From Panopea generosa (taxonomy: Eukaryota > Mollusca > Bivalvia > Adapedonta > Hiatellidae), in the NCBI GenBank assembly GCA_029582155.1, contig CM055911.1:26348288-26412287 (forward strand): a stretch of 64,000 nucleotides of DNA, given 5' to 3'. How positions within the stretch are numbered: position 1 is the first letter of the stretch; the number at the start of each line of letters is the position of its first letter. Both the position numbers and the translations under genes were made by a program. The notes beneath the pieces are model-generated. The model was not told where the DNA came from. It saw nothing but the letters and a program-made list of their open reading frames with translations, and made no database searches. Below, one piece after another: positions 1 through 54,480 of this stretch.

Positions 1-1374
1 ACATCAGAATAAATTTAAGAAGAGATAGACAAAAAAACATGACACAGGGTTTTAGTTTTATAATATAATAGTATAATTTCGTATTTCATTGGTTAAAACG
101 ACCGGCATCTTGTGTGTGTTTATAAACCTTCAAATATATTACAGTACTGTTCTTTAAATCAAACACTACTTAATAAGAAGAAAACAAATCCCTACTGGCG
201 CACATATCATCCGCCGTCGGCGCAAAAAGGTAGTAGATGCACTCATAAATACTTCACACCCTCCACCTTATTGCCCTAACGGGACGACATATTGCCACTA
301 AACATGACGAAAGGAATCTCTAAGATGCGTCCCTTTCAAATTGGGACAACTGTTTAAATTATCATTTACAGCATCTAGACAGTAATCCATCTAAAGTGTT
401 AACAACATGCATAAACTTAACATTAAAACATTTCAGATAATGCATTTTAATGTAATTACATCAATAGTAGGACAAACTCTCATCTTCAGCTTTAGCAAGG
501 GCTTGGTTGATATCATTTGTTTTGACTAATCTGTTTGTGTCAACTGTTCATCATACATTCCTTTTCTCAAATGATTCCCCGATACTTTAAAAGATAAAAT
601 ACTGACAGGAATTTTGTTTAGTCGTATCAGGTATGACACTACCAACATCAGTTGCAATTTTAATCCTTAAATATACCCGAATGACTTTATAGAGTGACTG
701 GAGGTGATGAATCTGATATAAAACTCGGAGATAAATGTAATAATTTAAAGTAGGGATTTCTCCCACGCAAATTGAATAAAATCCAATTTATATTAAAATC
801 AGGTAAAAAGTAGGGAAGCGAGAACGTGACCTCTTATTTAACATATCATTAAAGTTTGTATTCGCAAGAGCCATCAATTAAACGAAGACATGTAATGGAG
901 TATAGTTTATTGTGGTAGAGTATTTGAGAGATGACACAGACGATGTTAAAGGTGACTTTGTCATTTACATACAGGGATAGTTTGATGATTTGGACAGTAT
1001 TTAAAATACCGTTAAATCAAATTAATGGGAATGTTTATGTAGTCATCGGAAGGACGATTCGTTAACAAGGAAGGTTTACAAAGTTTTTTCATCACTGACT
1101 AAAATATGAAGAAGGAGAAGAAGATTTCATTTCCTCGTGATAGGTTTAGTGGGGTCGAGGCCATCCCACACTTACAGTAGAAAGTATGAAAATTATTTAC
1201 AACAAAGCATTAAGACTTATAAGCTAAACAAGAATATCAACAAAATCATTTGTATGGTTTTTATTAAATATTCAATGGCGGAAATAGAGTTTGATTAAAT
1301 TTTCTTACAACTCTTATCAAATGAAACTTTTTTTTTTTCAAAATGAGGATGTTTCCATAAAATTGTATATAAGT
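1..1374. other. Gene-free AT-rich DNA
   Basis: No exon-like open frame, RNA gene or recognisable repeat. Short open frames are at chance level. Confidence 0.6.
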
Positions 1375-1565
1375 ATATATACTGAAAGGATAAAGCAACG
1401 CCAGGTGAATTTGAGACCCACACTATCAAACGCTTGTAATATGTATGTAAAAGTATTTCACTAATGACTTTGTCACTATGATCAATATTTTTGACACAAT
1501 CATTAATTAACAAAATACCTTTACAAACATGTTCTAAAACTGTAAATATCGCTTACAATAATTTG
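1375..1565. repeat. Dispersed repeat shared with 3.05-3.17 kb
   Basis: TATACTGAAAGGATAA, GGTGAATTT, ATCAAAC, AATATGTATGTAAA and the reversed phrase TAAATATCGCTTACAAT have counterparts at 3063-3170. Unclassified and non-coding; the short reverse open frame here is not a gene. Confidence 0.45.
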
Positions 1566-1669
1566 AAAATTTCTCTCAGAAATTCACTCGGCGTTTCTTT
1601 AGCCTTTCCGTATAGTGATTTTGGGTTAGCGTAGAAATTTTAAAACAGAAACATGCAAATGACGTGGAC

Positions 1670-1862
1670 TCTCATGTGGAACACGTGATCCAGTAGAAGA
1701 GCATCGAACCCAGGATCGAAGGGTCATTGGTTCGATCCTCCCTATGGCTATGTGTGGTGTCCTTGAGCAAGACACTTTTTCCGCATATACTTAGTACTGG
1801 TTCTACCCAGGAAGACTTCGAGCGTGATTTGTATAGTTAAACTAACTTAACAAATAACTGGA
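1670..1862 (+). mobile_element. tRNA-derived SINE, family B
   Basis: The head has a B box (TTGGTTCGATCCTCC), followed by CCTTGAGCAAGACACTTTTT, TACTTAGTACTGGTTCTACC and AGCGTGATTTGTATAG. This set of phrases defines family B in the window. Confidence 0.85.
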
Positions 1863-4800
1863 TAAAAAACAAGGAACATTTTGGGATAACTAGAATTACT
1901 GGCATATACTTCATGCCTTACAATACAAATTGCCCGGTGATTTTAATCTTTAACGGCCGTACTTCCGACACAACACGTTGAGTTTATAGAAGTAACTTAG
2001 TATCTAGTTAAATAGTATACAATAGCTAACATTAAAGTGGTATGGTAGAACTGACCACAAGTTATTTGGATTACCAACGGCTTTATTTAGTATTCAAACA
2101 GCGTCAGTAAGATGTAAACAGCTTCTGTTAAATATTGTTTGATGTGGTTTCTCCACGTAACGCTTCATTGTAAGGTGTTATTATATTATCAATATCACAA
2201 CCGCCTTGTTAGTAATTTTGACTTAATGCATCTACTCTCAACATGCAGTACAATCTTGGTGTTTTACCTGTAGACACTATATCATTCTTGAAAAGTACAT
2301 AACGCCTTTTTGTAATGTAAACAATGATAGCTTTGTTTAAAAAAGATGCTTTGAACATTTCGGTGTTTTTTCAACAAAGCATATAATCAAAAAAACCTAT
2401 TCAGTGAAATGGCTGTAATTGTTTCTGTTAATTATGATAAAATTTAATTTTGAAATTGCAAATTTACTTTCTTCTCCGATAATTCAAATAAAACATTCTC
2501 AGTAAATGATACTATGAAACATTGGCTTATTACATCTATAAGTGTACATTAATTGGAATAAAATAAGCCGTGATGGAAACATTTAATTTCCAATGTGGCT
2601 GTGTATGTCTAATAACATATCAACATAGCATAGTATATATTTTATTTAAGTATCACCTCTATTACCTTACAACTATAAATACATAATATATTTACAAATA
2701 TAAATAGAGAATTGAAAGAGACTCTTAACAGAACTCTGAGAGACTGGTTGCTACTTTTCCACAATAATAAATGTCAATAAAAATCAACTACATACGTAAT
2801 TTACAAGTTGAGCCATGATTTCAGCATTCAATTCCACTAAAAAAGAATAGATTTAAGGATTCTTTTTTGTATTAAAGATACATTTGAAAATATAAAGTAA
2901 GGATTTTAACATAATAAAACATAATTACAATTAATCATTATATAAGCTAACAAAAATACAAAAATATTTATCCAACATAAGACTAGTATTTAAGCAGGAC
3001 ACCGCCAATTCAACAGTAAAACCAAAATCAATATTATATAGAAATGTCTATTAAACAGAATGCGTATACTGATAGGATAATAAAACGGCGGGTGAATTTT
3101 AGAGCAATTATCAAACTATTGTAAGCGATATTTACAGTTATAGAATATGTATGTAAAGGTATTCGTTAGTCTGTAGAACGGACCCAGCTTTCCCTATTGA
3201 ATCCGTTAAATAGCAAGGTTGGGAAAGCAACATTTGAGCACGTCGATTGGCCAGTTGCTTCAACTGAAAGTTTGAATGACGTCATAGTTTGATAATCGTT
3301 CAATTGCTATGAATTATGGGATAGCATAGAATCCACTACTTTTCATTGGGAGGTTAGTAAACCTGATTCGGGAGCTATCAGGTTCTGGAATGGACTTTTA
3401 ACGAAATGCATATTCAGATATTAAATTTTGAAGTCTTTGTTAAATGTAACTTGTAATATGATATGTTCATAATGATAAGAAATAAACAGATTGTTTTATA
3501 TAATCAAATTGCGTTGATTTCAAACGTGTGTATTAATTTATTTCGTAAGGTATATTGTTTTATTAAAGCAAGGATCCTGATTATTAGTACCACGAACAGG
3601 TATTAAACAGCACGTGCAAAAATAAATAACTACTTCATGAACTCGAACTTTATTTGCACATAATTATAATTGGTTTAGAAAAATGTAAACATTTTACATG
3701 ATAATGTTCAAAATGTTGCAATTGCAAGTGGTTAGTCGAAAAAATGTGACGTTTTCTTACCCGAATAGTTTACGTGTTTAGATATAAATCATAAATCACA
3801 AATTTATATAACTAAAGAATACGTTACTTGCCCTGGAGATAAATTAACCCACGTTGGCAAAATATGGTTAGCTACTATCAAGGCAATTCTTTACCTAAAT
3901 AGCCTTCTATTTAAGCCTAAATAGTGTTGACCATGTCCTACTGATATGGTCTCTTTTGATACATGTTGACTTTCAACACCAACAAGCTCACACTTTACTG
4001 TACAGTAGACACATTCCATATGTTATTATTTACATCGCATTTAAAACAAATCAGATCTTCGTTAAATTAGACTATTTAGTATAAAATTTCGATTAATCTT
4101 TAATACTGATTAGTTAACAATCTCACCACAACAAAGACATTAAGTAGTTTAATTTGAAATACCTAATGGTTTGTAGAGACGTCATTAAGGACACAATATG
4201 TTAAAACTCTGCTATGAAAGGAATGTAAAGCATAAATCAAAGTCCTAAAATGAGGATCTGTTTAAAAGGTTTTTTTCTATTTTCCTTTTAGCAGTATGTT
4301 ATTACGGATACATGAAGCAAAGTGTTATTTATTTTGCTAACTAGGACCAGAGTTTTTAATCCATTAAGTACATGAGGTAATTAAATCTCTTAATCAATTG
4401 TTAATGGATGAATAAAGCAATTTGCAAAGGAGGGAAACACCGGCAGCACCAGCCATGTATACTTTATCTATTAATGACATCGCCTTTTAAGTTGGTTAAT
4501 ATAATTTTAAAATATATGTTTATTAAATACTCGTACACTTCCTAAAGCATGTTTGTATTTTAAAGAGATTCTTTGTTTATTTTTATTTTTCAATATAAAA
4601 TTTTCATACAAAATGCTTAAGGTTTTATTGTTGTTTTTGTTGTTTTTTGTAGTGTTGATATATGTAATTAATAGTATGTGAAAGTGTAATGAGGCTGAGC
4701 AACTTCTGCTGTTGTTGTTGTTTTTTTTGTTTGTTTTTTTTGTTAAATTGTTTAAAAGTCATGTTATTAATTAATTTGCATTATAATGTTCATTCTCATG

Positions 4801-16325: not shown

Positions 16326-16569
16326 CAAAATTAAGTCGAAAATGTGTCATAACTCCTGTATAATTTTACCTGATAATACCAAACTTGGCCTGTATTCTAT
16401 AATTATATAGCTACGCGTCTAATAGTATGTCATTATAAAGACCCTTTTAAAAGTTATTAATCGGACCCCCCTCCCGCCTTTACGTACGGACGCACAAATA
16501 GACGAATACTCGATGTCCTTCACCATTCTTCGAATGGCGGGGGCATGGAAAAAACATCCAAAAAAATAG

Positions 16570-16728
16570 TTGGTTGGTTGGTTGGTTGGTTGGTTGGTTG
16601 GTTGGTTGGTTGGTTGGTTGGTTGGTTGGTTGGTTGGTTGGTTGGTTGGTTGGTTGGTTGGTTGGTTGGTTGGTTGGTTGGTTGGTTGGTTGGTTGGTTG
16701 GTTGGTTGGTTGGTTGGTTGGTTGGTTT
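16570..16728. repeat. (TTGG)n microsatellite, about 40 copies
   Basis: Near-perfect tetranucleotide tract. The open frames over it on both strands are translations of the repeat. It sits at the 3' tail of a reverse family C SINE, whose normal tail is CAAC-rich. Confidence 0.97.
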
Positions 16729-20716: not shown

Positions 20717-22061
20717 ACAGGGACACTTTGCTGGTAAAAGCCCTCATAAAGGCCACCGGGAACCTCTTATTGTTATACATCTATAACCAGGGTTCTCCAC
20801 AGGAACGAATGCAAGCACTGGGATAAGAGCGCATAAATACTTTCAACACATTTTCACAGTGCTGTGTAAGGCACACATTGAAATATATTTCATTGGTAAA
20901 ACTTGGATTAATCAGTTAAAGTCATCATATTTAGTATGTTTCATTTTAGGCATCAAAATGAGAAAAGATATGAAAAAAAAAATTATGGATCCCTGTTGGT
21001 GATCTGTGTATCTATACACACTAATACGCTATCAGTGATTGTACGTGCCCATTGTTAGTGTTGTTTCCAAGGTGTGAATGATATTGGGTACTTGTATCAT
21101 TAATTAAGATAGTTTTAAGTGGAGTGAGATGAAGCCTATACAGGATGTTGCTTTCTCGGCACCTATGGCTTTATATCATGCCCTTTGTAAGAGGGCATGC
21201 TTTCACATTGCTAAAATAAGGGACGGTGGGAACACGTTTGAAAAACATGAAGGTGATCACACATGGAATTGAAGGAAAGGACCTCTGGGTCTTGGAGCAA
21301 GCTTGCTTATACATTAGACCACCGTAATGCACTGGTCAGTCATTTGTTATCAAGGCTCACATCAGCTCTTACTACATCAACATTCCCGCAGAATAGTACC
21401 CTGGAAGTACTAGAGTTTTACTTTGCTCCAACAAAAGCTATTTCAATGCCTCTTATCTTGGACCGGCCTTATCACTTTTATTACTGTCTGAGTTACCTGC
21501 CAATAGCACTCTCATATTTCAAGTGATCCAATCTTTTGTGTAGCAGACTTGGTAGTTTCAATACAGGAACACACATTTCCATTTCATTTCCATGGATGTA
21601 GCAAGTCGTATTGTTTATACTAAACTAAAGGTAGTAATATTATTTCTACAGAGTGGGTAGTTATACAGGCTTCTCAACAGGCCATTTAAGTACAGGGGCA
21701 CCCAAGCGTTTGGCTTCAGAAATGGTATTCCCCAAGCGCTTGAATTATTTAACAAAATTTTGCAAAAGCTTATTTTCCTCTTAATCATTAATTTTTTTTT
21801 TCATATCTTTTCTCATTTTGATGCCTAAAATGAAACATACTAAATATGATGACTTTAACTGATTAATACAAGTTTTACCAATGAAATATATTTCAATGAG
21901 TGCCTTACACAGCACTGTGAAAGAAAATGTGTTGAAAGTATTTATGCGCTCTTATCCCAGTGCTTGCATTCGTTCCTGTGGAGAACCCTGGTTATAGATG
22001 TATAACAATAAGAGGTCCCCGGTGGCCTTTATGAGGGCTTTTACCAGCAAAGTGTCCCTGT
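20717..22061. mobile_element. DNA element with about 272-bp inverted terminal arms
   Basis: The left arm, 20717-20988, and the right arm, 21788-22061, are near-perfect reverse complements. Tips read ACAGGGACACTTTGCTGG and CCAGCAAAGTGTCCCTGT. The interior of about 800 bp holds no complete transposase. An 87-codon open frame at 21263-21526 resembles nothing I recognise. The CAGGG tip recalls hAT elements, but I found no matching 8-bp target duplication. It is probably a non-autonomous element, and it ends about 330 bp before the gene's first visible exon. Confidence 0.7.
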
Positions 22062-22390: not shown

Positions 22391-22512
22391 AGAGTCAAAC
22401 TATGTGAGTGAAGCTGCGACACTAAATGTGGTCAAACATAGCTGGGGCTACCTCAGTTAGCTAGTGACATGCTGAGATCTTGGTAGCAGCCAGTTAGCAC
22501 AAACAGTAAAAC
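22391..22512 (+). other. Probable 5' UTR exon part with 3' splice site
   Basis: A pyrimidine tract followed by TTCCAG ends at 22392, so the transcript may have an upstream non-coding exon spliced to 22393. Between there and the start codon lie stops in the coding frame (TAA at 22507-22509), so the protein cannot extend upstream within this exon. The first exon and the promoter are not identifiable from sequence alone. Confidence 0.45.
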
Positions 22513-23077
22513 ATGGGTGATGAGTCACACCAAAGATGTTGTGTGTTTGCCACTCGGACTGTGCACTCGCCATTCCCGTCTCATCTACCTGTAATCAAAG
22601 GTGACATTTTGACAGTGATTCAACCGGAAACAGATTCTTTCATACTCGCGGAAAACAAACACTTCATACGAGGTTTGGTAAATGTACAGAATGTCAGGCC
22701 TGTTGATCTTTATACAAATGAAGATTTCTTTCTTGTGGATTTCACCGCTAAAATGGCACAGATAATTTTAGCAGATAAACCATGTGGGACTTTTCTCGTC
22801 CGGTCGTACTCCCGAGACTCCGAGAAAATCGTCATTAGCGTAATCTTCAACAGTGTCAGGCACTACACCTTCGTTAAAAATGGTGGCGGAATTGAATATG
22901 ATGGTGTTGTGTATCAGTCGATACCAAGATTTGTGAACAAATGTTGCAATACGCAGAATCAGCCAATATTGGATGGATATCTAGGTCACTGGATCAAACA
23001 GTCGGAGGTTGTCCAACTACCCCTGGTTACTTCGCAGAACTACATGACAATGCAAAAAATGATATTAAGGATAGTAG
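22513..23077 (+). CDS. Coding exon 1: first SH3-like and SH2 domains
   Basis: Encodes residues 1-188 plus one base. Residues 10-64 fit an SH3 fold: the stretch around KGDILTVI (29-36), then FILAEN, then RGLVNVQNV, matching the usual KGD, W..A and G.(V/I)P..YV positions. The canonical ligand-groove Trp is replaced by Phe 43. Residues 72-160 are SH2: GTFLVR (92-97) carries the phosphate-binding arginine, R97, and RHYTF (116-120) is the usual HY of strand D. The conserved opening Trp of SH2 appears as Phe. This whole SH3-SH2 module lies in one exon. The donor reads AG|GTATGA at 23078. Confidence 0.88.
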
Positions 23078-26000
23078 GTATGACTCTGGCAGTGTATAAC
23101 ATGTTTTTTGTTGAGCCCAATTGCGGCAAGGTCAATATATTTCTCAATGGTGGTGCAGTGAATGCATGTGACTGTCCCTATAGTATTATTTTAACTGAAC
23201 TACATACATTTCACTGTATAGATGGCTTTACTGGTCACAGCAAAATATGTTGATTCCCCCAAAGTAGGTAAGTTGCTAGTGGTCGGTATCAGGAGTTGAC
23301 CATGATTGAAGGGATTACAAGGTGTGACATATTGAACATTTGTGGTAGTCCACTGGAGTATCAGCGAAAAAGTCTGGTTACCCTGTCCCAGTAGCCTGAT
23401 TAAATTAAATAAGGCGTGGATGAACAGCTTTTTTATATTTGGATATATATCCTATGTTCTTTCTTGGAAGACGCAAAATAAACAATCGTCAAAAGGCTCC
23501 TTAGAAACATACAACATGTCACACAAGTACCCAGCACAATGTAATTGAAAGCTCAGCATAAACTCATGGTGATCAAGCTAACATGCACCCCTTGTGATTG
23601 GACTTGAGTTATATTCACATTCTATGTACCATTGTAAAAACTGTACATGTGGTTCTGTTTATAAGCTATTTGAGCAGACATTCTTACATCGCTTTTAACA
23701 TTATTTCCTGTTTCCTGATATTTTTAGTTGTATTGTAACGTACTTCAAGAACACGTAATCTTTTCTATTGTTACTTAATTATGTAGATCATGAAACTTCC
23801 TTTGTTAACATGATGATGTTAATTGTATTTTCTGTTTTAATAAGTGTTTTTTTTCAATTAGTGCTTGTATTGTTTTGATACTAGGAAGAACTGTGTACTG
23901 AGAAAAAAGAGATAATGAAACTAACTACTACTTAGTGTTCTGTGAAATGAATGAAACAATTACATCAAACTATCGATAGATTGCAATTAAGTAAGAGTTT
24001 CGATGGTATACATCAATTGTAAGAGTGGCACATTAGGCCATGTTAGATTATCATCCCGACCGTTCGCACCTTTAATTTTCATGCCACCTCGACCATTTTT
24101 ATTTCCATAAAAATAAAAAATAAAAAAAATAATTTTTTTTTTTAAAAAAATCCCCCTTTTTAAGAAAAAATTTGGATGATAATCTTGCAATTAATTTATT
24201 ATGGCCTTATACCACTTGATGCACCTTTCTTACTTCCCTATACATATAGTCAAACAATCTGTTGATAACACAATGGCTTTACTATAAACATGTACACACA
24301 TATTCAATTAAATATAAGTGGCAATATATATAAACTACAGTAAAACAATTTGATGTATATATTCACATTAACTCAACTACCACAGCAGTGGGATAATGGT
24401 AGGGCATCCGCTTCACATGTGGAAGGCTGTGGGTTCAATGGCAAGCAGGGTCATACCAAAGACTTGAGTTTCCTTGATTGGTGTTTAGTGGGTAGTTCAG
24501 GTCTGATCGACCTGGTGCCAGTATAATGTGACTAGTTGGGGTATCATATGTCTGTGGCATGATATTCCATTGTGGCAACGCTCAGAATTCTGTCTCAAGT
24601 AGACACCGTCACAACATAACTGAAAAGCGACACTCAACACCATAAAGCAATAACTTCATCTTGAATTATTTATATTATTTCAGCTGGGTCCATAGCAGTG
24701 GCTGTAGATGACTATGTGTCCAACCACAGCCTGTTTCTTTCACTCAGCAAAGGGAACCAGTATACAGTGATACGAGCTAGCCGTGATCCTCAGTTTTACA
24801 TCGCAAGAGATGAAGAGGAGAATGAAGGGTAAAAACATCGAATAACATCTTGCTTTGAAGCGATAAATTTTTATTATTTTGATTTTATCTCCATTATCAT
24901 AGTCAGCGATTTCATGCATGGTACGAAGAAACCAAGGCTTGATGACATGTTGGAGAACTAGTGTTTAAGCAAGTAAAAACAGTTGCTTTTCTTTAAGGGC
25001 ACACACAATGCATGGTTTTAAGTTTGTCATCGAGGGCTAACAGATGATCAGATCCTGGATGGTTAAACAGGAGTCAAGCACATCCATCACTGCAAGTAAC
25101 TGATAGCTTTCTTACTTGCATTAGTGATGAGAGGTCTATGTATGACAATGAGGCGCAATGTCATCAATCAATCATCAGTGAGACTGTGGTCCAGCAGGGA
25201 TTCGAACTCACCCCCTGGATTGATAGTCAGACACAATACCGGACTGAGCTAATGGGGCCTGGCTAGTTTGACATCATTGTGAATCTGAGTAGAATCACCA
25301 TCAAGTAACTGGCAAACTTTCTCACAGAACTTTTTTGGACAGGGTGAGGCTCGTACTTATAACCAGAGCAGCGAGAGGTATTTTATAAATCTCAGATCTT
25401 TCGAGGAATATAGCCTATTAGTCAGTGCAAAGTGTTGAAAATGGCTTTAATCCCCATTACTCCCCATTACAACACTTGTATACATGGTCATTGCAGGTAT
25501 GTGGCGGCATCGATGTTGGAGTGCTACATACCGGAGTGGTTCCATGGTAGAATGGAAAGGGAAGAAGCCGAACAAATACTGAACAAAACTTGTCGTGATG
25601 GAACATTTCTGGTGCGTGAACGTCCGTCCAAACCTGGCATGTTTGCGCTGTCTGTGTGGTGCCCTGATGGTATCATCCATGTACCTTTAGGTAAAGATCA
25701 AATTTAGTATTATTTGTGGTGATTGTTAAAATACTGTACTTTCAGACTGTCAGCTGACATTAACCAGAGTGTGAGACCCAAGCTTGACCTGTACCTTTAT
25801 GTCCTCTGTTTCCGAACGTGTGTGTTTATACACCATTAATCACTGACAACTGCCAATTAGATTTGTTTTTATTTAGTATTAAATGATAAGAATGGGGAGA
25901 CTATGTTATTCTATGATTCTCTGGGGTGTATGCATGTATCAAATTGGTAGTTTTGAATCACTTCTCAAGCATCCTCTGAATAGTAAAGTTTGTTATTAAA

Positions 26001-29000
26001 GAAGTCTTGTTCCACAGATATGTGTTTTTGGATGTATTAAACCCCAGCCTCTGAATTACAAATAGTGACTTGTAGCAATGATAGATGGTGACACTACTTT
26101 GTTTTTATTGTAGTACACTGTAGTTGATGTGTCCTCTTGTCGATTTGACAGAAAAATGCCTGGCAATCAATATCTATTTTCTTTCAGCTGTTCACTTACA
26201 ATTGTCCTTGTGTTCATTATTTATTAATATAACTATGTCTCCATCTCTCACAGAGACACATTGATGTTTTTTCTCGAGCTCACTTGGGGTGAACTTGACA
26301 TAGTCATTACATTGGCGGCAAAGTGTAATGAGAGTTCAGAAATGAGTAAAAATATTCTTGTCAGTTCCGTATCTTAAAAACCACTGGGCAGATTTTGAGT
26401 GTTTAAACATAATAATACAAAGTGTTGCACGAATAACTAAGGTCAAGGTCATTGCTTAGAAGTTCTTATTTTTTTTGGCTTTTACATTAATTGTTGCGCC
26501 TTAGTCAATTAAAGTTAGGTCCATATCTTTTTTCTTATAGTTGCCTTAGATAAAACAGCAACTTTCTATGATGCTGATTGTTTGTTTGAATATTTAGCAT
26601 CATTTTATGCCATTGAGGGCTAATAGACGATCAGTTAACCTTACCGCTTCTACCTGGGAGTGTTGGAGGTGAATCAGTAATCAAACACACCCATCTTACC
26701 AAGTAACTGATCACTTCCCCAATTGAATTGGTGGTGAGAGATGAATGACAATGAGATGCATTGTCATATATCAGTCATTGCAGAGAATGTGGCCAGGTGG
26801 GGATTAGAACTCATGAACCCTAGTTTGATAGTCAGACATGCTACTGACTGAGCTAACCGGGCCTAACAATACCGACCAGTAAATGCTCACATGTCTGAAA
26901 GGAACAGTTGTATATATCCAGTTTTCTTAAATAAAGCATGTGACATAACCCATGAACACCATATTTCAGCCTACAGTAACACCGGTCAGTTGACCACGGG
27001 TAACAGTCCAGATCTGCCCGTGTTTGACTGCCTGCTGGATCTTGTTGACCACTATAGAAGACAAACAGCTTTCTGGACCATCAGCGGAGAATGTGTACGG
27101 ACATTGTTTCCTCTGTCGAGAAGGGAATCCCTGCTCCCTGATGAGATACAGAGAATGGATTTACCTGAGATTGAGATGTACTTCAAAGCATTAAAAGAGG
27201 GAAAGGAGCACGTTCGGGATATAAGGTTAGGCCATCTTTAAAAAAAAGTCCTCATCTACTGTTCCCCACCCAATTCATGATTTTTTGTTTGTTGAAGAAT
27301 TGTGATAAAATAGTAAAAGAAATAAAAGTTATATATTTTTTATGTAGGATCATTCTGCTTGGGTAAGTGGCCAGATGGGGATTTAAACTCATGACCCCTG
27401 GTTTGATAGTCAGACATGCTATCGACCGAGCCAACTGGGCCTGGCCTGGTCATTTTAAAACAGTACAAAGTTCATATGAACAAAATGCTCCTTGAAAGTC
27501 AATAAAAAAAATGTGGTAGTTGCATTAAGTCACATATCACCTTGGTGTTCCCAGGGGTTAATGTGCATCGTTTTTTCACTTGGAACATTTCTTGTTGATT
27601 GGTATTGTTACTGTATTCAGGTTGATGGTTGTTGGTCACTACGGGGCTGGTAAATCTACCCTGACACAGAGACTGATGGGTCGCCCCTTTACCCAGTTGG
27701 GCAGCACAAATGGTATAGAAATTCACGTACGGCAATGCCAGTATAACATTAAGACAGGTCAGTGGTGTAAAAACAGACCGGGCTCAGCGTTCATGGATGA
27801 CGAAGAAACTCATGCTATGAGGTATTTATTGCCCACTGCTAACATTTATTAACACTTAAAAATCAAACTTGGTATTTCAAGCGATTGATATAAAAATTAA
27901 CTGGTAAACCTGGGTCTGAGATTATAAAACTTTGTTCCATATTCAACTTAAAAAGGAATGTACTCATTATAACAAAATACAGTCAAACCTGTCCTAAACA
28001 GCCAGTCATGGTAATTAACAAAAGTGGCCTTTTAAGACAGTTTATTGCATAATACAGGTTACTTTGGACTTTGAACCCACAAGTTTAGTTAGTGTAACTT
28101 AATTAACATATTTATTCAAATTTACATACATACAAATCTGTTTAATCATAATAATTGATAAGAATGGTAGATAAAATGTTTTAAAGTTCTTCTCCCAATT
28201 TAATTCCAGATTGCAACGTCTCTTAGAATCACCTGACGAGGAAAGAACTTCAGTCATGGAGGACTTCAAACGTCTGACCAATGCAAGATCTTCATCAAAT
28301 AGAAATTCAGGGGACTTCACTCTTAATAGTACATCTAGTGATATCAGCATGTTGTCTCAGAATGATTCCTGCGCCTCCTTACAGGAGTCTCTGTCTGACC
28401 CAACCCTCAGTAAGACTTCTACCGAGCTTGAAGAAAGTCTTAAAACATCTGTAAGTGACTACCAAATAGATATGGACAAAAATAATGTAGCACGCTACAA
28501 GTTCTCAGAAAGTACTCTGAAGGCCATATCACAAACATTTGGACGTAACAGACATGATAGTAAAAGTGAAAAATATGGTTTTATCTCGATGTGGGACTTT
28601 GCTGGACAGTACATATTCTATGCAACGCATCAAGTGTTCTTAAGTTCTCATGCAGTTTATCTGCTGGTTCTTGATCTGTCAAAAGATCTGGATGAGTTTG
28701 TTCAAGATGAAGAATTTCCACTCGAGTGCGTCAACATACAGGGTCATTGTGTGAAGGATTACGGGACATTCTGGCTACGATCCATACACACATTTTGCGG
28801 AAATGTCCCGGGTCAGCCACCAGTCATTTTGATTGGAACGCACAAAGACCAAATGAAATGCTGCGAAGAAAGACGGGAAGAATTCGCAGAGAAATATTTT
28901 GAAGATTTCAGAAAGTTGGTTGAAAAACTGCCTGTGTCGAATCATATTCAGCCGGAGCAATTCATAGTGGATAATACATTGTCAGAGGAGGAGTTCACAA

Positions 29001-32000
29001 AACTGAAGACAGCATTGGTCAATGTTGCTAAGCGACAACAGCAGTGGCACCAAGAGATTCCTGCAAGGTGGCTCCCGTTAGAAAGGTATACACATGTACA
29101 TTTATGTGTTCACACAAGATATGAATTAACAATTGTATGAATGAATGAGTTTAATTTATGCAATTTTAAAATTACGTTTAAAATAAGAATAATTTTTGTC
29201 TCCATTGTATTTAATTCTATAGCATATCATGGAGACAGCAAAAAAAAAAGAAGTTTTGACTCTCCAGATTTTTGGGTCAGGGTTCAAATAACTCTCCGCT
29301 TTTGAGTGCTATTGAGAACTCTGTTAAACAAAGGCCGTTTTCTTTTTCATTGAGCTGTAATAACAATAGCACCACTGCCGACCACTGCAGTGAGAAAGAA
29401 TTCTTCAATGTCATGTTCATTTCTAGCTCATCTTGTCTAGCAGAGAAAGCGTGGTTAGGCATCATATGTTAGCCATCAATGTCTAAATGTTCAAACAAAC
29501 TTTCAAACATCAAACATTAGAGACCATTTCACAATTCTGTTTGTTCATGGTGATTATGATTAAATTGTCCATATCAACACTGTGTTTTTCTATTAAGGCT
29601 TTCACAAGTGATGTCAAGAATGAGATTACTAGCTCATGTTAGTGGCAACAAAATTGTTATTAGATATACAGTCGATCCTGTGTATTCGGTCACCACTATT
29701 AAGCAGTGACCTGTCTTCAGCAACCGTATTTTCTATTTCCCATGTCTATGCTTTCAGAGTAAATTAACCTGTATTAAGCAATTACCTGTCTTAAAAGGCC
29801 ACTTTTGCTCCTTCCCTTGATTGGCTGCTGAAGACAGGTTTGACTGTATAGAATATTTAGTTCTCAAAGTATCAACTAGTTTCCAAGCCAAATTAAAACG
29901 ATTGATATAAATTCATTATCAATTAATTAGTCTTGAATTCATTTTTATTGATCATTGAAAACAATTAACCAGAACATCGTTAAATGACATGAATCAGTCA
30001 CTGAGTTGATCAGACAACTGATTTAGTTTGATTAAAACATTTTTGTATTATTTATAAAACATGTCGAAATCCAAATAGAGATGTCTCATGTTTTTTAGTT
30101 TGAACTTTGGTTAAATTATATTGTAGATCTCTGATGAAGATGAGAGCCACTGCCACAATAGTGACCCTTGACGATGTTCTTCAAGCTGACAGAAATAACG
30201 AAGTGAGAATCAATGATGTTGAAGAAATTTTGTTGTTTCTAAGGTATGTTTATTAATATTTACTAGTATATCAAAAGTCACATCCATGTAACACAATGTG
30301 ACCAATAAAGCTGCAAAATTTCATCCTGTGCAGCAAGACATTGTAGGAGTGGTTATTGTAAAACAGCCATACCTGTCGGTTAAGTTTTAGTATGCTAAAA
30401 CTACACCATTGATCAGCTGCTGTTTCAAGCCTACTGAAGGTGTATAAACGGATCCATGTGTATTTGTCTACAGATTAGAGTGAATGAACTCACAAGCTCA
30501 ATTTCAAATTTTGGCAGTTTGAGCTTTAACGTTTTTTTTTCAACCTGCATAAAATAATTTTTTTTGTTGTTGTCGAAAATATGTTTTTAATTCTGTATTT
30601 AATAACAATAATCTAGTAGTATGCAAAAATAGTGTTGACTGTGATATTTTCAAAAAAAGGTGTCTCTGATTTGAATCACCGCAGTGGAGGCCTAATGGTA
30701 GAGCGACCGCCTCTCATACGGACAGTTGTCGGTTCGATCCTCGACCCGGTCATAACATAGACTTGAAAAATGATACTAGAAGCTTCCTCGGTTGGTGCAC
30801 AGCATTTAAAAGACAGTCCTAGGTTTGGTCAGCCCAGTGTCACTCTAATGTTACTAGGTGGGGTATCATACTAAAATTTGACAGATTACTGCATTGATTT
30901 TTAACCAATGTCAATGGAACCAAATGCGGTTCTCCTGTAACCAGTCTAAAGTTAAGTTTTTTTTATTTACGTTTTTAGGTATTTAAGTATTTACTTAATT
31001 ATGTTTATGAAACAGAAGTCAACTTGGATAACAAGATAAAATTGCACTATTCTTAAGTTGTTTTTACCTGTCTAGATATCAACATGCAATTGGTGGATTG
31101 ATTTACTTCGAGGATGAGGGACTATCAGACAGCGTGGTGCTGGACCCCCAGTGGATCATTGACGCCTTCAAGTGCCTTATCACTGCCAAAAGATTCTGCA
31201 AGCGGAATTCAGAATTACGTCCCTTGTGGGCAGAGTTGCAGGAAAAGGCCATTCTTAAGAATGAGTTGATAAATGAAGTCTGGAAGACAGAAAAGGATGG
31301 TTCATTCTTGCAGGAGAGGGAGAAACTACTGTCCTACATGGAGAGGTTAGACATAATTGCTCAACCAAAAATTGTCCTAGAAGATGGTAGCATCAAGAGT
31401 TGTGAGGATTACTTTGTGCCAAGTTTACTGAAAGTGAAAGGGAAACAAAATGTTTTGCAGCCAGTTCCAGGCTCTAAGCAGTGTTCACCATGTCTGTGTT
31501 TTGTATTTGAAGAAGGTTTCGTACCTCCTGTTGTGTTCCAGCGTATGCTGTGTGGATGCCTATCCAAATATTCCATATTGAGTATGGGCGGGGTTGTGCA
31601 GCTTTTCTGTGATCTTGGAATATTTAAGCTGGATATGTGTCACAGCTTCATATTCAGGATGGACGGGGACGTGATGAAAATACAGGTCATTAACATGGTA
31701 GAGGAAAAGGTGGAGTCATCATTGTGCGACAAACTACGGCGCTTTATGACATCACTGCTTGAAAGCGAACTGGGGCGTTATCAGCAGAACATGGCCTTTT
31801 CCGTCTGCATTGAGTGTGAACGCATGGACAGATTGACAGACGAACTGCTGAATTGTAAAGAACTGCTCAAAAATGAAAAACTTCCATGCCTGGCTCATTC
31901 AGACTCTCATACTGTGCATGCCAGTTCCATTCTTAACAGCTGGTTCCCGGATTATGTGGAAATTCCCCAAGGTCAGACAACCTTGCATTCATGGATTGAT

Positions 32001-32303
32001 AATCTCCCTTCAGAGATCAAAAACAGGGAGGTTACTCCGAAAGACTTGAGCAAGATCTCAAAAAGTTTAGGTTTTAACTGGGAGTTTGTTCCCCTGGAAC
32101 TTGGTCTAACACAGGTGGATATCAACCAGTCAAAGATGGATTACAAATGTCAAACTGCTATGGAAATCTTTGACACTCTGATGAAGTGGAGTAAAGCAAA
32201 AAAGCAACACGCAACCATGTATGAACTTGTGAAAGCAATACAACAGAACTCCAGTGTTGAAGTAAACTGGGAGATGGTGAAGAATGTTGTAGATGGAATA
32301 TAG
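22513..32303 (+). CDS. SH3-SH2-SH3-SH2-Roc-COR-Death protein (eight coding exons)
   Basis: Exons: 22513-23077, 24684-24828, 25497-25690, 26970-27225, 27621-27821, 28210-29085, 30127-30243, 31076-32303. Every intron is GT-AG and the phases (1,2,1,2,2,2,2) join without a frame break, giving 1193 residues plus TAG. The start ATG has A at -3 and G at +4, with an in-frame TAA six bases upstream. Domains: SH3-like 10-64, SH2 72-160, SH3-like 193-245, SH2 251-345, Roc GTPase 387-735, COR about 740-1050, death domain about 1095-1185. Known of the families: SH2 binds phosphotyrosine, SH3 binds proline-rich ligands, Roc-COR is a GTPase-dimerisation unit (LRRK2, DAPK1, MFHAS1), and death domains recruit partners in apoptosis or innate immunity. 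No kinase, ankyrin or LRR segment is present. Inference: a cytoplasmic adaptor-GTPase linking tyrosine phosphorylation to death-domain signalling. Domain identity is secure; function is not. Confidence 0.9.
23078..24683 (+). other. Intron 1
   Basis: GT-AG, 1606 bp, with A/T homopolymer tracts at 24110-24170 and a family C SINE at its 3' end. No additional exon is needed to keep the frame. Confidence 0.85.
24380..24655 (+). mobile_element. SINE family C abutting exon 2
   Basis: Full-length forward copy with head ATGGTAGGGCATCCGCTTCA and end GCGACACTCAACACCATAAA. It ends about 30 bp before the exon 2 splice site, so the branch point and pyrimidine tract lie in, or right beside, its 3' end. Confidence 0.88.
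24684..24828 (+). CDS. Coding exon 2: second SH3-like domain
   Basis: Residues 189-236. AVDDYV (195-200) corresponds to the ALYDY motif, SLSKGNQYTVI (208-218) to the ELSFKKGD..VI segment, and QFYIARDE (225-232) to the W..A strand, again with Phe instead of Trp. The acceptor TTTCAG ends at 24683, only about 30 bases after a SINE in the preceding intron. The donor GG|GTAAAA is at 24829. The domain finishes in exon 3 with GYVAASML, the GYIPSNYV equivalent. Confidence 0.85.
25014..25263 (-). mobile_element. SINE family A in intron 2
   Basis: Reverse copy: CATCGAGGGCTAACAG at the tail end, TGCAAGTAACTGATAGC in the body, and a degraded tRNA-like head ending at GGGGCCTGGC. It lies between exons 2 and 3. 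Confidence 0.88.
25264..25415 (+). repeat. Family E fragment in intron 2
   Basis: TGTGAATCTGAGTAGAATCA, AAGTAACTGGCAAACTTTCT and AACCAGAGCAGCGAGAGG match the copy at 48.8 kb. It lies between a SINE and exon 3. Confidence 0.6.
25497..25690 (+). CDS. Coding exon 3: end of SH3-2 and start of SH2-2
   Basis: Residues 237-301. EWFHGRMEREEAEQIL (250-265) is a textbook SH2 opening (W.HG.I.R..AE.LL). GTFLVRE (272-278) holds the phosphotyrosine-binding R277, and IIHVPL (296-301) is strand D with His 298. This SH2 is closer to the family consensus than the first. The acceptor TTGCAG ends at 25496 and the donor TTTAG|GTAAAG starts at 25691. Confidence 0.92.
26587..26865 (-). mobile_element. SINE family A in intron 3
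   Basis: Reverse copy with TGAATATTTAGCATCATTTT, the body and a complete head ending ACTGAGCTAACCGGGCC. It is about 100 bp before exon 4. Confidence 0.9.
26970..27225 (+). CDS. Coding exon 4: end of SH2-2 and linker to Roc
   Basis: Residues 302-386. FDCLLDLVDHYRR (320-332) is the C-terminal SH2 helix (F.SL..LV.HY). A charged linker of about 40 residues follows, containing LPDEIQRMDLPEIE, and leads into the GTPase. The acceptor ATTTCAG ends at 26969; the donor ATAAG|GTTAGG starts at 27226. Confidence 0.88.
27365..27444 (-). mobile_element. SINE family A head fragment in intron 4
   Basis: Only the tRNA-like head and a little body remain (ACTCATGACCCCTGG, then CCGAGCCAACTGGGCC on the + strand). 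Truncated copy. Confidence 0.8.
27621..27821 (+). CDS. Coding exon 5: Roc GTPase P-loop
   Basis: Residues 387-453. MVVGHYGAGKSTL contains the Walker A or G1 motif at 392-400 (GHYGAGKST), with K398 and S399 expected to bind the nucleotide phosphates and Mg. A likely switch I threonine lies in STNGIEI, about 20 residues on. The acceptor TATTCAG ends at 27620; the donor ATGAG|GTATTT starts at 27822. Confidence 0.93.
27977..28072. mobile_element. Half MITE in intron 5
   Basis: Left end TACAGTCAAACCTGTCCTAA through AAGTGGCCTTTTAAGACAG to AATACAGGTTACTTTG. The right half is missing. Confidence 0.75.
28210..29085 (+). CDS. Coding exon 6: Ser-rich Roc insert and GTPase core
   Basis: Residues 454-745. 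The first 115 residues or so are Ser, Thr, Asn and acidic-rich and look disordered. They separate G1 from G3. Then come MWDFAGQ (581-587; DxxGQ is G3), the typical Roc strand FYATHQVFLSSHAVYLLV, and IGTHKDQ (THKD at 664-667 is G4). The exon closes with IPARWLPLER, the entry to the COR domain. The acceptor ATTCCAG ends at 28209 and the donor GAAAG|GTATAC starts at 29086. Confidence 0.93.
29086..30126 (+). other. Intron 6
   Basis: GT-AG, 1041 bp, containing the TA-flanked MITE at 29667-29848. The small open frames here have no domain content. Confidence 0.85.
29667..29848. mobile_element. TA-flanked MITE in intron 6
   Basis: The ends TACAGTCGATCCTGTGTATT and AAGACAGGTTTGACTGTA are inverted repeats, and TA lies at each border as in Tc1/mariner targets. 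The interior (TCAGCAACCGT, TGTATTAAGCAATTACCTG) is shared with the copies at 27.98, 44.2 and 46.2 kb. Confidence 0.8.
30127..30243 (+). CDS. Coding exon 7: start of COR domain
   Basis: Residues 746-784, a helical segment (TIVTLDDVLQA, NDVEEILLFL) typical of the N-terminal part of COR. It is the smallest exon, between the acceptor TTGTAG and the donor CTAAG|GTATGT. It has no start of its own and is supported by phase continuity and by fit to the COR pattern on either side. Confidence 0.88.
30676..30880 (+). mobile_element. SINE family C, 3'-truncated, in intron 7
   Basis: Head GGCCTAATGGTAGAGCGACC and GTTCGATCCTCGACC. The body runs to GGTGGGGTATCATAC, where it stops. Confidence 0.85.
31076..32303 (+). 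CDS. Coding exon 8: COR domain and C-terminal death domain
   Basis: Residues 785-1193. GGLIYFED and VVLDPQWIIDAF are the hallmark COR strands (the ..VILDPQWL.. pattern), and a lone LLSYMERLDII helix and YFVPSLLK follow as in other Roco proteins. The last 100 residues or so form a death domain: DLSKISKSLGFNWEFVPLEL, GLTQVDINQ, AMEIFDTLMKWSK and ATMYELVKAIQ match the six-helix pattern (L..la..LG..W..la..Lgl, ..LL..W, at...L..aL). The TAG stop is at 32301-32303. Confidence 0.92.
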
Positions 32304-33320: not shown

Positions 33321-33605
33321 ATGATTGATTGATTGAATATTTAGCGTCATTTTTATGCCATCAAGGGCTAACAGACAATCAGTTAACCTAACCACTGTTT
33401 CCTGGGATTTACCAGTATTCGAGCACACCCAATCTCCGCAAGTAATGATAACTTTCCCACTTGAATCAGTGGTGAGTGAAGAAGATAATGAGACACATTG
33501 TCGTATATTAATCATCACGGAGACTGTTGCTGGGCTGGGGATTCGAACTCAGGACCCCTGGATTGATAGTCAGATGCGTAACCGAATGAGCTAATCGGGC
33601 CTGGC
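33321..33605 (-). mobile_element. SINE family A with 11-bp target duplication
   Basis: Full-length reverse copy with a GATT-repeat tail. It is flanked by AATGCCTGAAC at 33310-33320 and again at 33606-33616, a perfect target site duplication that fixes both ends and points to recent insertion. Confidence 0.95.
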
Positions 33606-48962: not shown

Positions 48963-51900
48963 TCAGATAGTTAATATAACAGATGCCTGTGGGATCAGCA
49001 GCAGGGTCACATTTCTTTATACTTTTTCTGTAAAACTTTTTCTGAGTTTTGGTTAGACTACGAAATGAGATTTTTTTCTAAAGTGAGAAAGCTGGAGGGA
49101 GAGAGCTAAGCGACCCACTGTTCAAACTTTCTTAGCTTTGGTGAACCTTTATTTTATGCCCTAACCGACTTAGTACAGGCTCAGTTAGAGAGTTTGTGCG
49201 CATGCGTGTGGTCTACATAACGAATAGCCAGTTTAATAAATATTTTTTATGAAAACATGAGTCTGAACAGCATTTGCTCTCATTACATACAAAACGCAGT
49301 TTATGATGGCAATATATTGGTTTATACAGTTTATGATTTCCGTATGTAGGTTTATACAGTTTATGATTTCCATATGTTGGTTTATACAGTTTATGACGTC
49401 AATATGTTGGTTTATACAACTTATGATGTCCATATGTACGTTTATACAGTTTATGACGTCAATATGTTGGTTAATACAGTTTATGACGTCCATATGTTGG
49501 TTTATACAGAGTATGACGTCCATATGTTCGTTATTACAGTTTATGACTTCCATATGTTGGTTTGTACAGTTTATGATGTCCATATTTTGGTTTATACAGT
49601 TTATGATGTCAATATTTCGGTTGTTACAGTTTATGACGTCAATATGTTGGTTTATACAGTTTATGACGTCCATATGTAGGTTTATACAGTTTATGACGTC
49701 AATATGTTGGTTTATACAGTTTATGACGACCATATTTTGGTTTATATTGTTTATGACGTCCATATGTACGTTTAAACAGTTTATGACGACCATATGTACG
49801 TTTAAACAGTTTATGACGTCCATAGGTAGGTTTAAACAGTATATGATGTCCACATGTAGGTTGAAATAGTTTATGATGTCCATATGTAGGTTTATACAGT
49901 TTATGACGTCTGTTGGTTGGTTTATACAGTTTTTGATGTCCACATGTAGGTTTAAACAGTTTATGATGTCCATATGTAGGTTTAAACATTTTATGATAAC
50001 CACATGTAGGTTTATACTGTTTATGATATCCACATGTAGGTTTATACAGTATATGATGTCCACATGTAGGTTTATACAGTTTATGATATCCACATGGAAG
50101 TTTATACAGTTAATGATATCCACATGTAGGTTTATACAGTTAATGATGTCCATAGGAAGGTTTATACAGATTATGATATCCATACGAGGTTTATACAGTT
50201 AATGATGTCCATATATAGGTTTATACAGTTTATGATATCCATATGTAGGTTATACAGTTTATGATATCCACATGGAGGTTTATACAGTTAATGATATCCA
50301 CATGTAGGTTTATACAGTTTATGATATCCACATGTAGGTTATACAGTTAATGATATCCACATGGAGGTTTATACAGTTAATGATATCCACATGTAGGTTT
50401 ATACAGTATATGATGTCCACATGTAGGTTTATACAGTTAATGATGTGCACATGTAGTTTATACAGTTTATGATATCCATATGTAGATTTATACAGAATAT
50501 GATGTCCATATGTAAGTTTAAACAGTTTATGGTATTCATATGTAGGTTTATACAGTTCATGATGTCCATATGTAGGTTTATACAGTTCATGATATCCATA
50601 TGTAGGTTTATACAGTTCATAATGTCCATAGATAGGTTTATACAGTATATGATGTCCACATGTAGGTTTATACAGTTAATGATGTGCACATGTAGGTTTA
50701 TACAGTTTATGATATCCATATGTAGATTTAAACAGTATATGATGTCATTATGTAGGTTTAAACAGTATATGATGTCCATATGTAGGTTTAAACAGTTTAT
50801 GATATTCATATGTAGGTTTATACAGTTCATGATGTCCATATGTAGGTTTATACAGTTCATGATATCCATATGTAGGTTTATACAGTTCATGATGTCCATA
50901 GATAGGTTTATACAGTTTATGATGTCCATATGTAGGTTTATACATTTTATGCTATCAATATGTAGGTTTATACAGTTTATGATGTCCATATGTAGGTTTA
51001 AACAGTTTATGATGTCCATATGTAGGTTTATACAGTTTATGATGTCCACATGTAGATTTATACAGTTTATGATATCCACATGTAGTTTTATACAGTTTAT
51101 GATGTCCATACGTAGGTTTATACAGTTGATGATGTCCATATGTTGGTTAATACAGTTTATGATATCCATATGTAAGTTTGTACTGTTTATGATATCCACA
51201 TGTAGGTTTGTACAGTTTATGATATCCACATGTAGATTTATACAGATCATGATGTCAATATGTAGATTTATACAGTTTATGATACCCACATGTAGGTTTA
51301 TACGGTTTATGATGTCCAAATGTAGGTTTATACAGTTTATGATGTCCACATGTAGGTTTATACAGTTTATGATATCCATATGTAGGTTTATACAGTTTAT
51401 CATGTCCATATGTAGGTTTATACAGTTTATCATGTCCATATGTAAGTTTATACAGTTCATGATGTCCATATGTAGGTTTATACAGTTTATGATGTCCATA
51501 TGTAGGTTTATACAGTTTATGATATCCATATGTAGGTTTATACAGTTTATGATGTAAATATGTAGGTTTATACAGATTATGATATACATATGTAGGTTTA
51601 TACAGTTTATGATGTCCATTTGTTGGTTTATACAGTTTATGATATTCGTATGTAGGTTTATATAGTTTATGATATCCATATGTAGGTTTAAACCGTTTAT
51701 TATGTCAATATGTTTGTTTAAAGAGTATATGATATGCATGTATTGGTTTATACAGTTTATGATATCCATATGTTGGTTTATACAGTTTATGATGTCCATT
51801 TGTAAGGTTAAACAGTTTATGACGTCCATATGTAGGTTTAAACAGTTTACGATTTCCATGTGTTGGTTTATACAGTTTATGATTTCCATGTGTTGGTTTA

Positions 51901-52140
51901 AATAGTTTATGATGTCCATATGAAGGTTTAAACATTTTATGATGTCCATACGTAGGTTTTTACAGTTTATGATGATTATATGTAAGTTTAAACAGTTTAC
52001 GTTCTCCATGTGTACGTTTATTCAGTTCATGATGTCCATATGTTGGTTTATACAGTTTATGATATCCATATGTAGGTTTATACAGTTTATGATATCCATA
52101 TGTAGGTGTATACAGTTTATGATATCCATATGTAGGTTTA

Positions 52141-52900
52141 TACTGTTTATCATATCCATATGTTGGTTTATACAGTTTATGATTTCCACATGTATGTTTA
52201 AAAAGTTTATGATGTCTATATATAGGTTTAAACAGTTTACGATTTCCATTTGTTGGTTTATTCAGTTTATGATATCCATATGTAGGTTTAAACAGTTTAT
52301 GGTGTCCACATGTAGGTGTATACAGTTTATGATATCCATATGTTGGTTTATACAGTTTATGATATCCATATTTAGGTTTAAACAGTTTATGATGTCCACA
52401 TGTAGGTTTATACAGTTTATGATCTCCACATGTAGGTTTATACAGTTTATGATCTCCATATGTAGGTGTATACAGTTTATGATATCCATATGTAGGTTTA
52501 TACTGTTTATCATATCCATATGTTGGTTTATACAGTTTATGATTTCCACATGTATGTTTAAAAAGTTTATGATGTCCATATATAGGTTTAAACAGTTTAC
52601 GATTTCCATTTCTTGGTTTATTCAGTTTATGATTACCATATGTAGGTTTAAACAGTTTATGATGTCCACATGTAGGTGTATACAGTTTATGATATCCATA
52701 TGTTGGTTTATACAGTTTATGATATTCATATGTAGGTTTAAACAGTTTATGATGTCCACATGTAGGTTTATACAGTTTATGATCTCCATATGTAGGTTTA
52801 TACAGATTATGATGTCCATATGTATGTTTACACAGTTTATGATATCCACATGTAGGTTTATACACTTTATAATATCCACATGTAGGTTTATACAGTTAAT
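52141..52900. repeat. 360-bp higher-order repeat within the array
   Basis: The segment starting TACTGTTTATCATATCC at 52141 recurs at 52501 (360 bp, 12 units) and again at 53131 (630 bp, 21 units), with the same following variants (GATTTCCACATGTATG, then AAAAAGTTTATG). A further pair of TAAAGTGAATG units lies at 53251 and 53550. Confidence 0.85.
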
Positions 52901-54480
52901 GATATCCACATGGAAGTTTATACAGTTAATGATATCCACATGGGTGATTATACAGTTTATGATGTCCATATGTAGGTTTATACAGTTCATGATATCAAAA
53001 TGTAGGTTTATACAGTTTATGATGTCCATATGTCGGTTTATACAGTTTATGATATCCATATGTAGGTTTATACAGTTTATGATATCCATATGTAGGTGTA
53101 TACAGTTTATGATATCCATATGTAGGTTTATACTGTTTATCATATCCATGTGTTGGTTTATACAGTTTATGATTACCACATGTATGTTTAAAAAGTTGAT
53201 GATGTCCATATGTAGGTTTATACAGTTTATGATATCCATATGTAGGTTTATAAAGTGAATGATATCCATATGTTTGTTTATACAGTTAATGATGTCCATT
53301 TGTAGGTTTATACATGTTTTGATATCCATATGTTGGTTTATACAGTTTATGATATCCACATGTAGGTTTATACAGTTTATGATATCCATCTGTAGGTTTA
53401 AACAGTTTATGATGTCCACATGTAGGTTTAAAAAGTGAATGATATCCACTTGTATGTTTATACAGTTTATGATATCCATTGTAGGTTTAAACAGTTTATG
53501 ATGTCCATATGTAGGTTTATACAGTTTATGATATCCATATGTAGGTTTATAAAGTGAATGATATCCATATGTTTGTTTATACAGTTAATGATGTCCATTT
53601 GTAGGTTAATACATGTTATGATATCCATATGTTGGTTTATACAGTTTATGATATCCATATGTAGGTTTAAACAGTTTATGATGTGCACATGTAGGTTTAA
53701 AAAGTGAATGATATCCATATGTATGTTTATACAGTTTATGATATCCATTGTAAGTTTATACAGTTTATGATATCAATATATAGGTTCATACAATTTATGA
53801 TATCGATATGTAAATTTAAACAGTTGATGATGTCCATATGTTGGTTTATACAGTTTATGATATTTATATGTAGTATTAAACAGTTTATGATTTCCATGTG
53901 TTTGTTTATACAGTTGATGATGTCCATATATAGGTTTATACAGTTTTTGATGACCATATATTGGTTGATACAGTTGATGACGTTCATGTGTATGTTTGTA
54001 AAGTTGATGACGTTCATATTTGGGTTTATACAGTTTATGACGTCAATATGTAGGTTTAAACAGTTTATGATGTCTATATGCAAGTTTAAACAGTTCATGA
54101 TTTCCGTGTGCAGGTTTATACAGTTGATGATGTGGGTCCCGACTGTTCTGTAAGTTTATACAGTTTATGTCGTCCATATGTCGGTTTATACAGTTTATGA
54201 TGTCCATGTGTTGGTTTATACAGATAATGACTACCATGTGTTGGTTTACACAGTTACTGACGTCCATGTGTTGGTTTATACAGTTAATGACTACCATGTG
54301 TTGGTTTACACAGTTACTGACGTCCATGTGTTGGTTTAAACAGTTTATGACGTCAATATGAAGGTTTATACAGTTTATGACGTCATTGTGTAGGTTTATA
54401 AAGTTTATAACGTCCGTGTTTAGGTTTAAAAAGTTTATGATGTCCATATGCAAGTTTAAACTGTTTATGATTTTCCGTGT

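Follow-up and report, generated by a model that had tools for sequence, protein, structure and literature searches.

A predicted ROCO protein of the bivalve Panopea generosa combines SH2 domains, a Roc-COR core and a death domain

A predicted gene of the bivalve Panopea generosa encodes a ROCO protein in which SH2 domains precede the Roc GTPase and COR domains and a death domain follows them. The gene lies on the forward strand of a stretch of 64,000 nucleotides of assembly GCA_029582155.1 (contig CM055911.1, positions 26,348,288 to 26,412,287; C18:26348288-26412287 in our numbering of the contigs). This whole stretch is called the window, and positions are counted from its first base unless a contig is named. 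The predicted protein carries two modules, each with an SH3-like segment and an SH2 domain. The second SH2 domain has the arginine of a phosphotyrosine pocket, and the Roc domain that follows has its GTPase motifs. That the fused SH2-Roc-COR-Death arrangement is found at four loci on three contigs is close to certain from the sequences. We give about an even chance to the reading that the single gene encodes a ROCO GTPase scaffold with an SH3-SH2-SH3-SH2 adaptor N-terminus, in which phosphotyrosine binding would gate a GTPase dimer that displays the death domain.

The gene model was rebuilt from the raw sequence and has eight exons and seven GT-AG introns of compatible phase. The joined exons amount to 3582 nt, which encode 1193 residues and a stop codon and are open throughout. 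This bears out a first-pass annotation, made by a model from the letters and their open reading frames (ORFs), that had all parts of the gene joined by phase-compatible GT-AG introns. The start codon lies in the context AAAC-ATG-G, and an in-frame TAA is found two codons upstream. Tandem-repeat arrays aside, the longest open frames in the window have 423, 321 and 247 codons and are those of exons 8, 6 and 1. Exon 1 (22513-23077, donor TAG/gtatga) contains the start codon and the entire first module, exon 2 (24684-24828) the bulk of the second SH3-like segment, and exon 3 (25497-25690) the end of that segment together with the first half of the second SH2 domain. Exon 4 (26970-27225) completes this SH2 domain, adds a linker and begins the first Roc strand; reading through its donor leads to a stop after four further residues. 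The Roc P-loop GHYGAGKST and the switch I region TNGIEI are encoded by exon 5 (27621-27821). Exon 6 (28210-29085) encodes a serine-rich Roc insert (about residues 454-570), the WDFAGQ and THKD motifs and the start of COR-A, which continues through exon 7 (30127-30243). Exon 8 (31076-32303) carries the end of COR-A, a COR-B-like region, the death domain and the stop codon.

The first SH2 domain (22750-22938, residues 80-142) scores 27.2 bits (E 4.3e-6) in Pfam, with its FLVR Arg97 at 22801-22803. The second (25537-27055, split by intron 3; residues 251-330) scores 64.1 bits and has its FLVR Arg277 at 25615-25617. Both scores come from scans of module fragments, and the Pfam cut-off for SH2 is 21 bits. 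In a PDB search the closest solved structures to the second SH2 domain are the SH2 domains of SHP2 (E 8.7e-18). The first SH3-like segment (22549-22701, residues 13-63) scores 17.8 bits against Pfam SH3_2, where the cut-off is 21.8, and the second (24701-25503, split by intron 2; residues 195-239) scores 16.2 bits against SH3_1, where it is 22.9. The SH3 assignments rest on where the segments lie and on PDB matches in which SH3 and SH2 align together with Csk and Grb2. In PDB, module 2 aligns as an SH3-SH2 unit with Grb2 (E 3.6e-12, module residues 5-144) and with Csk (E 3.5e-12, residues 18-160). Module 1 alone has no PDB match below E 0.06 (Csk, E 0.13), and a four-row profile that includes it matches the SH2-region chain 2rvf (E 4e-4), the SH3-SH2 unit of Csk (E 7e-4) and Crk (E 1e-3). 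The two modules of the gene may stem from an internal duplication, as comparison of module 1 with module 2 gives E 0.003 in BLASTP and 90% with E 1.5e-6 in hhalign, with window rows on both sides. When paralogs are brought in, window module 1 matches a paralog-only module 2 profile at E 0.002, and paralog module 1 matches paralog module 2 at E 0.21.

The Roc domain scores 48.5 bits in Pfam (cut-off 27) and has the G1, G3 and G4 motifs. Directly behind it lies COR-A (29060-31430, exons 6-8; residues 738-903) with 54.2 bits (cut-off 35.3). By Roc and COR-A together the predicted protein is a member of the ROCO family, and the best PDB match of its Roc-COR part is LRRK2 (E 4e-11). The death domain (32043-32246, residues 1108-1175) scores 25.8 bits in a fragment scan and 22.7 in the whole protein against a cut-off of 22.6, and its nearest solved structures are those of CRADD (E 9e-6) and RIPK1 (E 1e-3). 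The PDB alignment pairs the switch II motif WDFAGQ of the window protein with WDFAGR in LRRK2. GTP hydrolysis using the switch II glutamine is therefore plausible. The 15 Pfam families that match at E <=1 include no kinase, leucine-rich repeat (LRR), ankyrin or TIR family. The motifs named by the first-pass annotation were recovered at the residues it gave: the FLVR arginines R97 and R277, GHYGAGKST at 392-400, WDFAGQ at 582-587 and THKD at 664-667.

The source genome (1,474,161,289 bases in 39 contigs) was searched with the 1193-residue protein and gave at least 53 matches at E <=1e-5, six of which are pieces of the window gene. Three paralogs are intronless over the matched part: L011 (contig C6, 1213 codons), L012 (C3, 1158 codons) and L018 (C6, 1039 codons). 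The ORFs of L011 and L018 have SH2 (28.4 and 49.1 bits), Roc, COR-A and Death above the Pfam cut-offs. In L012, Roc, COR-A and Death are found in the whole ORF and SH2 (38.8 bits) only on a fragment scan. The paralogs share 30-31% identity with the window protein over the whole alignment and are collinear with it from the second SH2 domain to the C-terminus. In L011 and L012 the same frame additionally holds the second SH3 region and, ahead of it, 145-150 residues of a first module, and L018 is without most of both SH3 regions. A profile of the paralogs' second module, built with the window excluded, recovers window exons 3, 4 and 2 (E 1.6e-9, 1.2e-7 and 0.0038), followed by a stray ORF (E 0.014). 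Because the paralogs carry SH2-Roc-COR-Death in single frames, a split into two genes at exons 4 and 5 is unlikely. Such a split had been named in the first-pass annotation as one finding that would overturn it; the paralogs answer it in the negative and support its view of one gene that encodes a ROCO protein, with SH2 modules preceding the core and a death domain following it.

It is thus extremely improbable that two neighbouring genes were fused between exons 4 and 5, or that the arrangement is an assembly artefact. AATAAA words do occur in intron 4, at 27321 and 27501, as two adjacent genes would have it, but at three loci elsewhere, on two further contigs, SH2 and Roc-COR-Death stand in single frames. 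Moreover, the Roc domain begins already in exon 4, which ends in phase 2. A decaying copy that is intact by chance is also very improbable: the low identity to the paralogs would suit it, but the gene has 1193 stop-free codons, every splice site is canonical, and the key GTPase and second-SH2 motifs are intact. The single gene is the reading that we retain. Over the matched part the paralogs have no introns where the window gene carries the order with introns, as would be expected of reverse-transcribed copies of a spliced mRNA, and they may have arisen as such copies.

Across the four proteins, the FLVR arginine of the second SH2 domain (F/Y-LVR; R277) and WFHG are kept in four of four, as are the P-loop (G1), DF[AG]GQ (G3) and THKD (G4). 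The FLVR motif of the first SH2 domain is found in the window gene only (one of four), and the paralogs read FFIS, FIIA and FLIS at the aligned residues. Relative to the window protein, the paralogs are 39-47% identical in Roc, 33-36% in COR, 30-37% in Death, 26-28% in the second SH2 domain and 12-28% in the second SH3 region, and identity falls to 8-15% in the serine-rich Roc insert (residues 440-570). The COR-B-like region is conserved across the paralogs. From the pattern of motifs and identities, the phosphotyrosine pocket of the second SH2 domain and the GTPase make up the conserved machinery. Retention of the second pocket in all four proteins and of the first in one suggests that selection acts on the sensor.

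Several results weigh against the full SH3-SH2-SH3-SH2-Roc-COR-Death order put forward in the first-pass annotation and against the scaffold reading built on it. Two SH2 domains, Roc, COR-A and Death stand above their Pfam cut-offs, but both SH3 segments fall below theirs. The COR-B-like region (residues 909-1083) and its L012 counterpart have no Pfam match at E <=10. Module 1 resembles the paralogs poorly, with 16-20% identity in the first SH2 domain and 20-30% in the first SH3 segment, the 30% being over just 10 residues. The first-module fragments of L011 and L012 have no Pfam match at E <=10, and a profile built from the first modules of all three paralogs gives 17 PDB matches at E <=10, none of which is an SH3 or SH2 protein. 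This profile also missed exon 1 among the translated ORFs of the window; against exon 1 singly it gives a weak match (E 7e-4). In profile alignment, exon 1 scores 17.4 against the paralogs' module 1, where the best of 60 shuffles scores 18.3, and it scores higher against their module 2 (26.6, E 0.002). Finally, in the tree described below, a single clade of SH2-bearing proteins is rejected when the ORF L025 is included (approximately unbiased (AU) test, p 0.001). With module 1 of the paralogs not recognisable by itself as SH3-SH2, the window gene is the only one for which the tandem SH3-SH2-SH3-SH2 order is a firm prediction. Of the tandem arrangement, then, the second SH2 domain holds in four of four proteins, but module 1 is secure as SH2 in the window gene only.

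These results raise the question of whether exon 1 instead belongs to a small SH3-SH2 adaptor gene of its own or to an isoform that ends early, the main protein being (SH3-)SH2-Roc-COR-Death with another 5' end. An ORF reads through the exon 1 donor (22510-23253, 247 residues from the preceding stop), intron 1 has three AATAAA words (23477, 24112 and 24119), the sequence link between exon 1 and the paralogs' first module is weak, and the in-frame Met243 of exon 3, just before the second SH2 domain, could serve as a shorter start. Exon 2 encodes the second SH3 segment and, from the preceding stop to its own end, holds no in-frame ATG; the next one is that of Met243, and exon 2 therefore requires a 5' exon. 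The phase of the exon 1 donor matches that of the exon 2 acceptor, and L011 and L012 carry their 145-150 residues ahead of the second SH3 segment in the same frame. It is on this phase match, on the upstream exon that exon 2 requires and on the similar size of the paralogs' N-terminal stretch that the link between exons 1 and 2 is based. We regard a separate exon 1 as improbable, and the predicted N-terminus, including exon 1, as likely to be exact.

The N-terminal 381 residues of the window protein were also searched against the genome and gave 17 matches at E <=0.1, namely four window exons and 13 others. Among these 13, the three paralogs take ranks 1, 2 and 6, and nine of the remaining ten coincide with places that a search for the SH2 family also found; C19:39980362 (E 0.06) is the one exception. 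The N-terminus of L012 matches only L012, L011 and L018 at E <=0.01. Among the best candidates scored in these whole-genome searches with the window and L012 N-termini, a fifth SH2-Roc gene was not found. A tree was made from 17 Roc-COR rows: the window protein and, from 31 ORFs of at least 300 codons, the 16 that reach 700; the other 15, all below 700 codons, stand outside it, so that shorter, broken or multi-exon Roc genes are excluded. An SH2 module is present in 4 of the 17 rows. L011, L012 and L018 form a clade (support 98/99), and the window protein pairs with L025 (100/100), which is itself a long branch. When L025, L028, L029 and two near-identical rows are left out, a single SH2 clade is not rejected (AU p 0.20). 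The SH2 module may thus have had a single origin followed by losses, or two origins. SH3-SH2 profiles were run against 44 loci of the same genome, with the window pieces and the paralogs among them and 5 kb upstream of six genes, and outside the four genes they matched only the pre-Roc linker (L013, L015, L025, L031 and L033) and a weak stretch in the Roc insert of L013. Taken together with tblastn on 14 loci, they found outside the four genes only the pre-Roc linker and weak stretches within the ORFs of L013 and L015. By eye, several of the other ORFs start where a splice acceptor may lie, which makes it probable that their N-termini are encoded by separate exons.

Roc domains are expanded in this genome, with at least 133 matches at E <=1e-3 and clusters at 55-57 Mb of C6, 64-65 Mb of C12 and 50 Mb of C18. 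L025 (positions 1006-4131 of the locus; C2:6453891 region) is a single frame of 1042 codons with a BAK-like BH3 stretch at its N-terminus. This N-terminus has no Pfam match, and 28 of the 31 PDB sequences that it matches at E <=1 are BAK or pieces of BAK (best E 0.012). The C-terminal fragment of L025 is death-like by eye and has no Pfam match. A first scan of viral contigs for relatives gave no match, and a second found five IMG/VR contigs (L046-L050) with distant Roc-COR relatives of 22-25% identity. A scan of a collection of genome contigs gave a single bacterial match, which shares QWIIDAF and was judged to be due to chance.

In the proposed mechanism, the SH3-SH2 modules of the resting protein would be folded against Roc-COR and keep it autoinhibited. 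A tyrosine-phosphorylated receptor or adaptor would be bound mainly through the second SH2 domain, with the first as a possible second contact. Docking would recruit the protein and release Roc-COR, which would then run a GTP cycle coupled to its dimer state, as is the case in other ROCO proteins. The C-terminal death domains, clustered in this way, would recruit death-domain partners, with cell death or an innate immune response as the putative output. A wider reading is possible, and we put it forward tentatively. It holds that an animal lineage has a natural phosphotyrosine-to-death switch, built from paired SH3-SH2 modules, GTP-gated dimerisation and death-domain signalling, and that retrocopying spread it to at least four genes, the copies having lost the phosphotyrosine pocket of the first SH2 domain and kept that of the second.

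The chief alternative is a scaffold without cell-death output. Its death domain would assemble receptor or Toll-type complexes, which is what the death domains of MyD88 and IRAK serve, or take part in other ROCO-like processes. The physiological roles of ROCO proteins are described as little known (PMC6337361), and in Aplysia, Roc and COR domains are found in two TIR proteins called Toll-like receptors (TLRs) and in MyD88-like proteins (PMC9334734). On the other side, the nearest solved death domains, of CRADD and RIPK1, both belong to death signalling, and L025, the tree partner of the window protein, has the BH3-like stretch. Neither point is strong. We consider a scaffold of this kind rather unlikely.

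Tyrosine-kinase adaptors with SH2 domains and adaptors of the death fold are usually treated as belonging to distinct networks. A natural protein in which a GTPase joins the two would allow their connection to be tested directly on recombinant domains, and it would give the ROCO family, to which LRRK2 and DAPK1 belong, an input module of a new class. Of the ROCO subgroups described so far, none that was compared fits the window protein. LRRK1 and LRRK2 share the Roc-COR tandem with it, but they have LRRs and a C-terminal kinase, neither of which is found in the window protein by Pfam, and to our knowledge they have no death domain. MFHAS1/MASL1 is a ROCO protein without a kinase, as is the window protein, but as far as we know it has LRRs in front and neither an SH2 nor a death domain. 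DAPK1 is similar in that Roc-COR is followed by a C-terminal death domain and LRRs are absent (PMC6337361, PMC6320773), whereas its N-terminal Ser/Thr kinase and ankyrin repeats have no counterpart in the window protein (Pfam). The nearest published precedent is NG3 of a sea anemone, which combines kinase, SH3, Roc-COR, Death and TIR domains and is presented as an immune gene and a probable product of domain shuffling (PMC5094078). NG3 and the window protein are each predicted to carry SH3 (SH3-like segments in the window protein), Roc-COR in a central position and Death on one chain, but no kinase or TIR domain was found in the window protein, and the term SH2 is absent from the text of PMC5094078. 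The Aplysia proteins are likewise a mollusc fusion of Roc-COR to immune modules, but they carry TIR and not SH2, and the terms SH2 and SH3 are absent from the text of PMC9334734. Engineered chimeras of a death effector domain (DED) with SH2 or PTB convert tyrosine-kinase signals to apoptosis (work of Howard et al., 2003, cited by an amphioxus paper, PMC2575513). These chimeras, too, hold a tyrosine-phosphate reader and a death-fold domain in one chain, but they are synthetic, use a DED and not a death domain, and are cited there with no mention of an intervening GTPase (PMC2575513). By analogy, the window protein is best read as a natural counterpart of the engineered SH2-DED chimeras.

Among the papers listed in searches of 5.39 million open full texts, no report of SH2 joined to Roc-COR was found, with subscription papers and protein databases outside the search. 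In the passages of papers that name both 'SH2 domain' and 'Roc-COR' or 'Ras of complex', the terms refer to different proteins. Orthologues may well be on record without annotation. The earlier claim that no characterised Roc-COR protein is known to have tandem SH3-SH2 modules in front agrees with this search of open literature. The search supports the novelty of SH2 with Roc-COR but not that of SH3, which already occurs beside Roc-COR-Death in the sea anemone protein (PMC5094078).

Elsewhere in the 64-kb window, Rfam and tRNA scans gave no match. A 76-nt repeat family has copies in intron 3 (26789-26864), in intron 4 (27367-27442) and downstream of the gene (33527-33602), and is possibly a short interspersed element, as a tRNA-type B box is visible by eye. 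Upstream, two adjacent pairs of 139-nt arms (20717-20990 and 21784-22061) are 97-99% complementary and form a fold-back element that ends about 450 bases before the start codon. A (GTTG)n repeat at 16569-16727 is perfect over about 40 units. A 10.8-kb array at 49297-60074 has about 359 copies of a 30-bp unit and is open in several frames on both strands. At 60084-62573 there follows a second array, whose 55-bp unit has words in common with the first.

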